From assembly GCF_009695545.1 (NCBI RefSeq), contig NZ_VUNS01000007.1, positions 1 to 64,000 on the forward strand: 64,000 bases of DNA, read 5' to 3'. The notes under the pieces are model-generated. The model made no database searches. It was given only the letters and a program-made list of their open reading frames with translations, and had not been told where the DNA came from. Shown piece by piece: positions 19,554 through 22,863 of the stretch. Within the stretch, counting starts at the first letter, position 1. Each line of letters opens with the position of its first letter. This DNA comes from Victivallis lenta. GTDB lineage: Bacteria > Verrucomicrobiota > Lentisphaeria > Victivallales > Victivallaceae. Both the position numbers and the translations under genes were made by a program.

Positions 19554-19581
19554 TTGCTTTCAGCCGGATTTTCAGTATAAT
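19554..19581 (+). promoter_or_regulatory. Sigma-70 promoter of the methyltransferase/OpgB-like pair
   Basis: TTGCTT and a consensus TATAAT with a 16-base spacer, ~50 bases before the ATG at 19634 and after the preceding terminator. Confidence 0.7.
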
Positions 19582-19633: not shown

Positions 19634-20284
19634 ATGTCTTCCGATGTGCTGGACTCCAAGTCCATGGTTCCGGATCACGGCGGCGTTGCCGCAGATGATA
19701 ATGCTTTTTCATTTTTCTGGCGTTTTTTGAATAATCCGATGAAGATCGGTGCACTGCGACCCTCCTCGCAGAAGCTCTGCCGGGCGACGCTGGAGGCCGT
19801 TGACCTGAAGCGTCGGCGCAATATCGTGGAGCTGGGGCCCGGTTCAGGCGTCATCACCCGTCATATTCTTTCGGCATTGAAAAAAGAAGACCGTTTCTTC
19901 GCGGTGGAGATCGACGGGGCCTTTTATCGGCAGCTTCGGGTGCGTTTCCCGGAAACCGCCGTTTTCCATGACAGCGCGGAGAATATTCCATTCCTGCTTG
20001 AGCGGCAGAAGATGCGGAAGATGGACGCAGTCATTTCCGGTCTGCCGTGGACCCTCTTTCCCGATCGGCTCAGCCGGGATATTCTGCGGAAGGTCTCCGA
20101 AAACATGTCGGAGGACGGCGTATTCGTCACGCTGTGCTACTGGCACGCCCAGTATCTGCCGACCGGGCTCAGGCTGAAGCGCCTGCTGCAGGACTATTTC
20201 GGGCAGGTCGAGATGACGCCGACCGTCTGGAGCAATGTTCCGCCGATTTTTCTGTTCCGGTGCGGCAAGAGCACGGTCCGGTAA
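19634..20284 (+). CDS. SAM-dependent methyltransferase, phospholipid N-methyltransferase (PmtA)-like
   Basis: The start at 19634 follows AGGAAA. The 216-aa protein has PMKIGALRPSSQKLCRATLEAV, then the SAM loop IVELGPGSGVITRHIL (motif I), FFAVEID (motif II) and AVISGLPWTLFPD (motif IV). The run NP.KIGA..PSS before motif I and the SGLPW motif are seen in PmtA-type phosphatidylethanolamine methyltransferases, related to rRNA adenine dimethylases. A role in phospholipid head-group methylation is plausible. It lies 5 nt before an OpgB-like gene, so both may act on membrane lipids or envelope glycans. Confidence 0.78.
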   Translation: MSSDVLDSKSMVPDHGGVAADDNAFSFFWRFLNNPMKIGALRPSSQKLCRATLEAVDLKRRRNIVELGPGSGVITRHILSALKKEDRFFAVEIDGAFYRQLRVRFPETAVFHDSAENIPFLLERQKMRKMDAVISGLPWTLFPDRLSRDILRKVSENMSEDGVFVTLCYWHAQYLPTGLRLKRLLQDYFGQVEMTPTVWSNVPPIFLFRCGKSTVR

Positions 20285-20289
20285 GCGCG

Positions 20290-22263
20290 ATGGTTCAGCT
20301 TGCGGCGACCTTCGGATTGTTTTTCCTGCTGGCTCTCCTGACCGGACTTTGTTATTCCAGATTCGATTCCCTGGGAATGCTGGTTCTGCTTCAGGGCGCG
20401 GCCGGAATGGTGCTGCTGCTTTCCGGACTGCTTCTGGTCTTGAGGCGATGGCGTTACCGGGCGTGGGTTGTCATGCCGCCGTTCATCGTCTTTCTCCTGG
20501 TTTATATCGGTGAACTGAGCTGCGCCTTCGCGACCGGCAGGCCCGTCTGTCTCGAGGTGCTCTGCAACGTGACGCCGGAGAATCTCCGGATGGGCGTCAG
20601 GCTGTTTTCCGCGGGAATCATCGGAGGAATGCTGATCCTCCTGGCCGGAATCGCTCTTTATGCTTATCTGTACACGCGGAAGCTGAATGTGAAAATCGCT
20701 GGCCGGACGGCCGTTTTTTTTCTTGTCAGCGGTCTGGTCCTCACGTTGTTCTGTTCACCGCTGACCAAACTGGCCGGACTCTTCGGCGATATCTGGCTGC
20801 AATACCGGATTCAGATGCTCGATCCCGAAGCCTATGCCGGGCTGGGAATCAAGATCAACGCGACCTCCCGGCAGGACATCAAGGCGAAGCCCGGCAGAAA
20901 CCTGGTGTTCATTTTTCTGGAAAGCCTGGAGAGAACCCATTGCGACGACAATGTCTTTCCGGGACTGACGCCGAACATCAACCGGCTGCGGAAAGAGGCA
21001 ATCTGTTTCGACAACAATGATAATGCGCCGAATGCCGATTATTCGTTCGGCGGAATGTATGCGGCGCTGACGGGCTCCGTATTGATCAATCAGCATCTGT
21101 CGGCGGGGCTGAACGGTGGAGTCAACCCGCATATCGGCAGCCGGCTGTCGTCGTTCCCCTGGATTCTGCACAAAGCCGGATACCGCCAGGTTTTCATCCT
21201 GGGGCCGGAGGTGAAGTTCGCCGGAGTCAACGTGCTGCTGAACCGGGAGGGGTTTGACGAAGCGATTTCCTGCGGAGACAATTCGTTCGAGGCGGCAGGA
21301 GACAGCTGGGGGTGTTCCGACCGGGAGCTGTTTGAATATGCGCTGCCCCGGTACCGGGAGCTGGTCGCCTCCGGGCAGCCGTTCCACCTCATGCTTTATA
21401 CGATCGATACCCATGTCCCGGACGGCTTCCTGAAGCCGTCCGCCCTCCGCTATCCGGCGGAGCCGGGCGGTCCGCAGCTGCTGCATGCGATTTACAATAC
21501 CGATCACGAAGTCGGCAGATTCATTGAACGGCTGAAAGACGAACCCGGCTGGGAGAATACCTGTGTCGTTTTCACGTCCGACCACCTTGCCACGGCGAAC
21601 AGCCTGTCCGCCCGCCTCGATGCGTGCGGGGAACGGCGGCATCTCTGTTTCGCCCTCAATGCGGGGGAACCGAAGATTATTTCGGAGCGCGGAATGACAT
21701 TCGATCTTGCCCCGACCGTGCTTGCGCTGCTCGGCGTCGAACACAATTTCACTTTCCCGCTCGGGGAAAATCTTCTGGAACCGGCCAATCCGGAACGGTT
21801 GAAACGGGAGAGGGCTCACGCCGAAGCCATCCGTTCCTATACGCTGCTGAACAGCGATCTGGTGCTTGACCGGCGGCCGGAGATATCGGTGAGGACCAGT
21901 CCCGTCCATATGCTGAATATCGGCGGCGTTTCGTTTCCGCTCTACCTCCGGCAGCCGGCCGTGCAGGGGCTTCCCGACAAGGAGCACTGTCTGGTCCTGC
22001 GGCTCTCTCCATTCCGCCGGATTGCGGAGGCGACCTGGTGCAGCGACGCCGGCTGGATCGAAGAGATAAGCCGCGGGACGAAGGATTCGGATCAATATAT
22101 CGTATTCGGCCAATCCGCCGGACCGGCCGGCCGGCTGCCGGGAGCTGCCGGAAAAAAGACCTGGATTCTCGGTTTCGGCAAACAGGGGAAATGGATCTGT
22201 TCCACCGGGGATGAGGTCGAAGCGCTGAAAGTGACCGGCGACTTGACCTTGAACCGGGAGTAA
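20290..22263 (+). CDS. OpgB/MdoB-like phosphoglycerol transferase (sulfatase superfamily)
   Basis: The open frame extends far upstream but the sensible start is ATG 20290, just after the methyltransferase stop; it opens with membrane helices. About five hydrophobic segments (residues ~1-160) precede a periplasmic domain of the alkaline-phosphatase/LtaS fold. LVFIFLESLERTHCDDNVFPGLTP, DYSFGGMYAALTG, TIDTHVPDGF and VVFTSDHLA match, from memory, the metal-site regions of phosphoglycerol transferase I, which adds phosphoglycerol from phosphatidylglycerol to periplasmic glucans. A lipid- or glycan-decorating role in the envelope is therefore likely; the acceptor is unknown. 657 aa. Confidence 0.82.
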   Translation: MVQLAATFGLFFLLALLTGLCYSRFDSLGMLVLLQGAAGMVLLLSGLLLVLRRWRYRAWVVMPPFIVFLLVYIGELSCAFATGRPVCLEVLCNVTPENLRMGVRLFSAGIIGGMLILLAGIALYAYLYTRKLNVKIAGRTAVFFLVSGLVLTLFCSPLTKLAGLFGDIWLQYRIQMLDPEAYAGLGIKINATSRQDIKAKPGRNLVFIFLESLERTHCDDNVFPGLTPNINRLRKEAICFDNNDNAPNADYSFGGMYAALTGSVLINQHLSAGLNGGVNPHIGSRLSSFPWILHKAGYRQVFILGPEVKFAGVNVLLNREGFDEAISCGDNSFEAAGDSWGCSDRELFEYALPRYRELVASGQPFHLMLYTIDTHVPDGFLKPSALRYPAEPGGPQLLHAIYNTDHEVGRFIERLKDEPGWENTCVVFTSDHLATANSLSARLDACGERRHLCFALNAGEPKIISERGMTFDLAPTVLALLGVEHNFTFPLGENLLEPANPERLKRERAHAEAIRSYTLLNSDLVLDRRPEISVRTSPVHMLNIGGVSFPLYLRQPAVQGLPDKEHCLVLRLSPFRRIAEATWCSDAGWIEEISRGTKDSDQYIVFGQSAGPAGRLPGAAGKKTWILGFGKQGKWICSTGDEVEALKVTGDLTLNRE

Positions 22264-22269
22264 AGGCAT

Positions 22270-22304
22270 AAAAAAAGCGGACGGGGGAACCATCCGCTTT
22301 TTTC
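22270..22304. terminator. Bidirectional terminator between convergent genes
   Basis: AAAAAGCGGA and TCCGCTTTTT form a stem flanked by A-run and T-run, so it works on both strands. It separates the OpgB-like gene (+) from the small lipoprotein gene (-). Confidence 0.9.
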
Positions 22305-22313
22305 CGATCGGAA

Positions 22314-22697
22314 TTACCGGATCGCGCTGAGCTGAACGCCGTTCAGCGAGACCTGGTAGCCGAGCTGTTCGGAGAGCGCGGCTTCGATCGACGCGCGGTC
22401 CATATGCTCGACGTGGAGCGCAACCATCTTCGACTGGTCAAGCTCCGTGTTCGCGGAACGTTTCCTGGCTTCGGATTTCGAGAAATAGATCGTGTTGTTG
22501 TTGAAGTCGAGCACGAGGGCGACCACGCCCGGGACGATGCCGAAGAACAGGCCGCAGCAGTCGAGGATCAGCACGGTCGGATCGATCTCCATCGACGGAG
22601 TTTCGGTTTTGCGCTCGGACCAGAACAGCGTGCCGCAGCCCGAAAAAACGAATGCGACGACACCGGCAAGGCCGACGGTGAGAGATTTTTTCAACAT
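22314..22697 (-). CDS. Small lipoprotein of unknown function
   Basis: Start chosen at 22697, where AGGAGA stands at proper distance; the upstream ATG at 22841 adds unrelated residues. The 127-aa product has a lipoprotein signal (MLKKSLTVGLAGVVAFVFSGC, lipobox Cys21), a second hydrophobic stretch VLILDCCGLFFGIVPGVVALVLDF (residues ~44-67) and a polar C-terminus with LSEQLGYQVSLNGVQ. The GIVPGVVALVLDF segment is seen in small envelope lipoproteins, but I cannot name the family. Confidence 0.7.
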   Translation of the reverse strand: MLKKSLTVGLAGVVAFVFSGCGTLFWSERKTETPSMEIDPTVLILDCCGLFFGIVPGVVALVLDFNNNTIYFSKSEARKRSANTELDQSKMVALHVEHMDRASIEAALSEQLGYQVSLNGVQLSAIR

Positions 22698-22834
22698 TTT
22701 CTTCTCCTGGTTATAGTTTGTTCGAGCGGCAACCGTGCTGCTCATGGGTTGAAGAATATGATAATATATTCCCTGCCGGTCGATTGTCAAGTCCGTCTCC
22801 GGCGCGGGAACGCGGGAAAATACCGCCTCCGGCT

Positions 22835-22863
22835 TTGACAAAGCGGCGCGGGGATGATATCTT
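22835..22863 (+). promoter_or_regulatory. Sigma-70 promoter of the interrupted urod-like gene
   Basis: Consensus TTGACA and TATCTT with a 17-base spacer, 34 bases before the ATG at 22898. AAGGAGG lies between them. Promoter and ribosome site are intact although the gene carries a stop codon. Confidence 0.65.

Follow-up and report, generated by a model that had tools for sequence, protein, structure and literature searches.

In the stretch of Victivallis lenta DNA analysed here (64,000 nucleotides, referred to as the window), two adjacent genes may constitute an envelope-modification bicistron of some Victivallis species that would combine methylation of phosphatidylethanolamine (PE) with transfer of phosphoglycerol from phosphatidylglycerol (PG) to a glycan other than the opgGH kind, a reading to which we assign a probability of roughly 0.45. 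Judged from sequence and predicted structure, the pair appears to be a novel combination of two known kinds of enzyme that is restricted to the genus and carries derived active sites, and is thus unusual but modest in its novelty; the substrates, direction of transfer, acceptor and joint physiological role given below are those that we infer.

Layout and identity of the two genes

The two reading frames lie on the forward (+) strand, 5 nt apart, exactly as the sequence-only reading had placed them: a candidate PmtA/OlsG-type lipid N-methyltransferase of 216 aa (19634–20284), with its stop codon ending at 20284, and a putative OpgB-like membrane-anchored phosphoglycerol transferase of 657 aa (20290–22263), with its ATG at 20290. 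The promoter ahead of them had been called good, which is true of its −10 hexamer (6/6) but not of its −35 (3/6); the element (TTGCTT-16 nt-TATAAT, 19554–19581, + strand) is missing from the consensus promoter scan because of this poor −35. The TTGCTT-16-TATAAT pattern, composed post hoc for a site already known, occurs once in the window versus 0 expected from 100 shuffles. On the downstream side, a terminator-like hairpin flanked by A and T tracts lies between convergent genes (about 22271–22303, no strand assigned; folding energy −17.6 kcal/mol, z −3.2, with 2 of 200 shuffles equally good). Given the neighbours (that is, two FAD-dependent oxidoreductases upstream and a convergent ORF downstream), the two genes look like an isolated bicistronic unit. 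The convergent ORF (175 aa, window positions 22314–22841) begins like a lipoprotein and matches no Pfam family.

For the first gene, both the OlsG model (1e-26; 93.9 bits, cut-off 350) and the PmtA model (7.5e-18; 64.7 bits, cut-off 250) give matches below their equivalog cut-offs. The closest solved relative by sequence is AtPmtA (PDB 9ko3), which also takes ranks 1–3 when the AF2 model of the methyltransferase is searched with Foldseek (E 1.8e-11, TM 0.78 by target length); this model has a mean pLDDT of 84 and an uncertain N terminus, where the amphipathic membrane helix of PmtA/OlsG enzymes would be expected (residues 1–22 below 50, helix 21–33 at low confidence). A SAM-binding motif (ELGPGSG) is present and the catalytic Tyr is kept (Tyr169), and the proposal that this is an enzyme of the lipid-methyltransferase kind is upheld by the two models, the structural match and this residue together. 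Since no score reaches its curated equivalog cut-off, any substrate name is provisional, and we file the predicted product as PmtA/OlsG-like only. That it might be an rRNA adenine dimethylase (KsgA/Erm) deserves almost no weight: Pfam RrnaAD (PF00398) passes narrowly (25.8 versus a gathering score of 24), but the KsgA model reaches only 34.2 bits (1.6e-8) against a cut-off of 171 and the Erm model 33.9 against 212, the OlsG and PmtA scores are better, the top fold match is AtPmtA, and a separate, genuine KsgA is found in the genome that holds the window (G000), with 232 bits versus 33 for this gene. The grouping with rRNA methylases that had been named beforehand as refuting is therefore absent.

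The second gene matches PF00884 (the sulfatase-fold domain, 3.1e-22) and two OpgB models, PRK03776 (4.5e-45; 153.9 bits, cut-off 574) and PRK12363 (2.4e-43; 148.8 bits, cut-off 572), again below the equivalog cut-offs. Hydropathy peaks between residues 4 and 158 mark the N-terminal third of the protein as hydrophobic, and several candidate transmembrane segments lie there; the AF2 model (pLDDT 69) is weak in this third, and its best structural matches are 3lxq, LtaP and LtaS. An LtaS identity was set aside, as the LtaS model scores 25.8 bits where 970 would be needed. In an alignment with E. coli OpgB and relatives, the active site falls at 20920–21585 (+ strand), with Glu211 (20920–20922), the nucleophile Ser252 (21043–21045), His375 (21412–21414) and Asp431-His432 (21580–21585), and the motifs FAG, DTHxPDGF and SDHLA are common to the transferase and the E. 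coli protein, so that the domain, the model matches and these motifs agree with the OpgB-like kind that had been proposed. We regard it as very unlikely that the gene encodes a hydrolase, whether sulfatase or phosphodiesterase, instead of a transferase, even though PF00884 is named for sulfatases and many sulfatases occur among the Foldseek matches. Formylglycine (S1) sulfatases have a C/S-x-P/A-x-R motif at the nucleophile; the residues at Ser252 read YSFGGMYAAL and lack it, and the protein has a membrane anchor and OpgB motifs, with OpgB and LtaS models and structures outranking sulfatases.

Distribution of the pair and its altered active sites

The same two genes stand together in Victivallis vadensis (G007), where they overlap by 4 nt and follow a promoter with 12/12 consensus positions (TTGACA-16-TATAAT); as the pair recurs in this species, the pairing is not due to chance. 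The upstream regions of the two pairs, when aligned, share little beyond the −10 region. The pairs occupy unrelated sites: comparison of the 64-kb window with the 20-kb surroundings of the V. vadensis pair found no other common protein and one 55-bp nucleotide match, and the V-ATPase site that is home to the V. vadensis pair is empty of it in 5/5 other Victivallis genomes, G000 included (about 1.5 kb inspected on each side). Identity between the two pairs is 58% for the methyltransferase and 44% for the transferase, and the comparison proteins of the same two genomes all lie above both values (KsgA 83%, V-ATPase subunit D 77%, methyltransferase paralogue 64%).

Among 137 genomes of the order, 20 contain OpgB-like matches (25 matches at a threshold of 1e-30), and tblastn of the flanks (some 1.5 kb, or less where a contig ends) placed a methyltransferase beside just 2 of the 25, those of G000 and G007, which bears out the suggestion that the pairing is unusual. 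In a phylum-wide sample of 387 genomes, with scoring limited to three candidates per genome, a threshold of 1e-40 gave 16 positives, every one of them from this order. A contig search returned 22 pattern matches, none of them a relative, when it was run with one window protein, and 14 loci when it was run with an 8-row alignment. Our literature search found no paper that combines ‘phospholipid N-methyltransferase’ with ‘phosphoglycerol transferase’.

Both members of the pair differ from their unpaired relatives at one active-site position. The active-site columns of the transferase are invariant except for Ser252, where E. coli OpgB has Thr. Among the 25 order matches, Ser is found in 2/2 paired copies, and Thr in 22 of the 23 unpaired copies, the last being unaligned at this position. 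Ser also occupies the nucleophile position in two remote proteobacterial MAG proteins (L113 and L115), and the Thr-to-Ser change is therefore not unique to the pair; one change in the ancestor of the paired clade would suffice to account for this distribution.

In the methyltransferase, the head-group groove is predicted to comprise Gly136 (20039–20041), the gate Leu167 (20132–20134) and the catalytic Tyr169 (20138–20140; whole span 20039–20140, + strand), in register with AtPmtA Ala128/Ile159/Tyr161; because the sequence alignment ends before the Tyr, this register was set through the equal spacing (33 residues) from the conserved S-[AG]-x-P motif. According to the account of AtPmtA (PMC12139422), these three residues form its head-group groove, BdPmtA with Phe161 in place of Ile159 yields mainly MMPE, and swaps at this residue shift the products. 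The family is present in 46 of the 61 genomes searched (G000 included), and the gate is Leu in 2/2 paired copies versus aromatic in 29/29 readable unpaired order-wide copies (26 Phe and 3 Tyr; the count covers 30 distinct sequences from fetched loci, one of them truncated, and thus a subset of the copies of the 46 genomes). In the tree, which left out both KsgA rows and the Sphingobium row and has weakly supported deep branches except for the paired clade, the paired copies group together with 100/100 support; a long stem leads to this clade, which is placed outside the paralogues of the genus itself. Read with the published rule for AtPmtA and BdPmtA (PMC12139422), a Leu gate would predict multiple methylation, towards PC, and the paired enzyme probably adds more than one methyl, its gate being Leu and not aromatic. 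On this comparison, the pairing and the altered active sites look specific to the genus.

Lipid substrates, donor and acceptor

Two PSD-type genes and a PgsA over its cut-off are found in G000, from which we predict that PE and PG are both available. We suggest that the cytosolic methyltransferase would N-methylate a membrane lipid on its amino head group, with phosphatidylethanolamine the likeliest substrate, and that the membrane-anchored transferase, facing the periplasm, would remove phosphoglycerol from phosphatidylglycerol by way of a covalent phospho-serine intermediate (with Ser252 in the phospho-Thr role of EptA/MCR-1-type relatives) and move it onto a periplasmic or surface glycan other than the opgGH glucan. 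These EptA/MCR-1-type relatives share the fold and use PE, with a proposed covalent phospho-Thr intermediate (PMC12658134). A search of the literature on Victivallis/Lentisphaerae lipids, at the level of search results, found no Victivallis lipid analysis.

That phosphoglycerol is passed to a periplasmic acceptor in the course of envelope decoration, as the sequence-only reading held, stands as a reasonable idea, but its glucan acceptor does not gain support. The classical arrangement, in which OpgB acts on opgGH glucans, draws on OpgB being the nearest named family and yet seems to us highly improbable, as opgG (PF04349) is absent from G000 (the E. coli control was positive) and from 58 of the 61 genomes searched, and the three positives all lie outside the 20 genomes with OpgB-like matches at 1e-30; one of the three (G043) has a weak OpgB-like match (5e-7). 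Given that G000 has no opgG, the phosphoglycerol probably goes to something other than an osmoregulated periplasmic glucan of the opgGH kind. Of the joint refuting outcome named beforehand, no periplasmic glucan system together with no methylated lipids, the glucan half is borne out. The OpgB-like genes of one relative (G053) lie near glycosyltransferase-like ORFs, a context that suits a surface-polysaccharide acceptor; such neighbourhoods were read by eye, since ORF picking in GC-rich DNA took some frames from the opposite strand, and family searches served to confirm the key proteins only. In two relatives, the OpgB-like gene is flanked on one side by an IspE-like gene (by eye) and on the other by a gene for a 1,200-aa protein (L049:4827-11744 and L050:5305-12172), which in L049 has a DUF748 (AsmA-like) match.

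The methyltransferase may, as a rather doubtful alternative, be an OlsG-like ornithine-lipid N-methyltransferase that is merely co-regulated with a transferase acting separately on PG. The OlsG model does outscore the PmtA model (93.9 versus 64.7 bits), one OlsB-like gene is present in G000 (145.9 bits, cut-off 320), and the methyltransferase family co-occurs with PF13444 among 61 relatives (both in 41, methyltransferase only in 5, PF13444 only in 6 and neither in 9; p 3.3e-4, uncorrected for kinship); the OlsB-like gene and this co-occurrence keep ornithine lipid among the possible substrates. However, the OlsG score is far under its cut-off of 350, PF13444 gives a match in the E. coli control as well, the co-occurrence applies for the most part to the order-wide paralogue and not to the paired copy, and solved structures favour PmtA, although the structure listing searched was without any OlsG. 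Beside the OlsB-like gene, a 38-bp unit is repeated in tandem (5.9 copies, 97% matches; L128:6117-6341, G000:C10).

The donor could also differ from PG. If it were the partner’s methylated lipid, phosphocholine or phospho-N-methylethanolamine would be moved to the glycan; this we hold to be unlikely, although pairing goes together with changes of both nucleophile and gate, and same-fold enzymes use PE via a phospho-Thr intermediate (PMC12658134). The OpgB-type pocket motifs are kept, which suits PG, a Ser in place of Thr need not change the donor, and two proteins of one ancestor amount to one evolutionary event. An equally improbable extension is a make-and-transfer system, in which PC or methylated PE would be built in the cytosolic leaflet and its head group moved by the Ser-nucleophile enzyme to a Victivallis surface glycan; if true, it would represent a lipid-derived route to phosphocholine-type decoration, by an OpgB-class enzyme with a changed donor. 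Returning to PE methylation with phosphoglycerol transfer from PG, should the two enzymes cooperate, a bacterium without classical periplasmic glucans would decorate another envelope glycan from its phospholipids, and would carry a second, differently gated lipid methyltransferase for that purpose. The Leu/aromatic and Ser/Thr splits provide two simple testable predictions, on product and donor.

Comparison with known systems

One comparison for the methyltransferase lies within the same genome: the order-wide paralogue (G000:C2:256588-257148) shares 44% identity and the same motifs with the paired copy, but has an aromatic gate and adjoins two ArnT-like genes, which match the ArnT model at 398 and 386 bits (cut-off 567). 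These two tandem glycosyltransferase genes lie upstream of the paralogue (L048:9692-13698, G000:C2), and inspection by eye showed ORFs resembling them next to the paralogue of several relatives; the arrangement looks like an envelope-modification operon. In two Victivallis genomes, a PSD-domain ORF of about 480 aa, above the usual PSD length, adjoins the ArnT-like/methyltransferase operon (L063:4295-5746 and L062:1444-2814). Another membrane-linked pairing occurs on enterobacterial plasmids, where relatives of the methyltransferase (H7 and H8) coincide with, or adjoin, the annotation of a DedA family protein.

With AtPmtA, an S-type phospholipid N-methyltransferase (PDB 9ko3; PMC12139422), the paired methyltransferase has the catalytic Tyr and the SAM motif in common, yet identity is about 22% in the structural alignment, and Leu and Gly replace Ile159 and Ala128, respectively. 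The top-scoring curated model (93.9 bits) is that of OlsG, the ornithine lipid N-methyltransferase of Singulisphaera acidiphila, the gene for which adjoins olsH and olsI (PMC12493201) and not an OpgB-like gene. The transferase resembles the lipoteichoic acid synthases LtaS and LtaP in its fold and metal-site residues, whereas its LtaS score is far below the cut-off. Its catalytic domain is 29% identical to that of E. coli K-12 OpgB (MdoB), as measured on plasmid-borne E. coli copies, and it shares the OpgB motifs, but it has Ser for the Thr nucleophile, its genome is without opgG, and a Pfam search of the transferase found no DUF7024, the domain that lies C-terminally in the E. coli enzyme.
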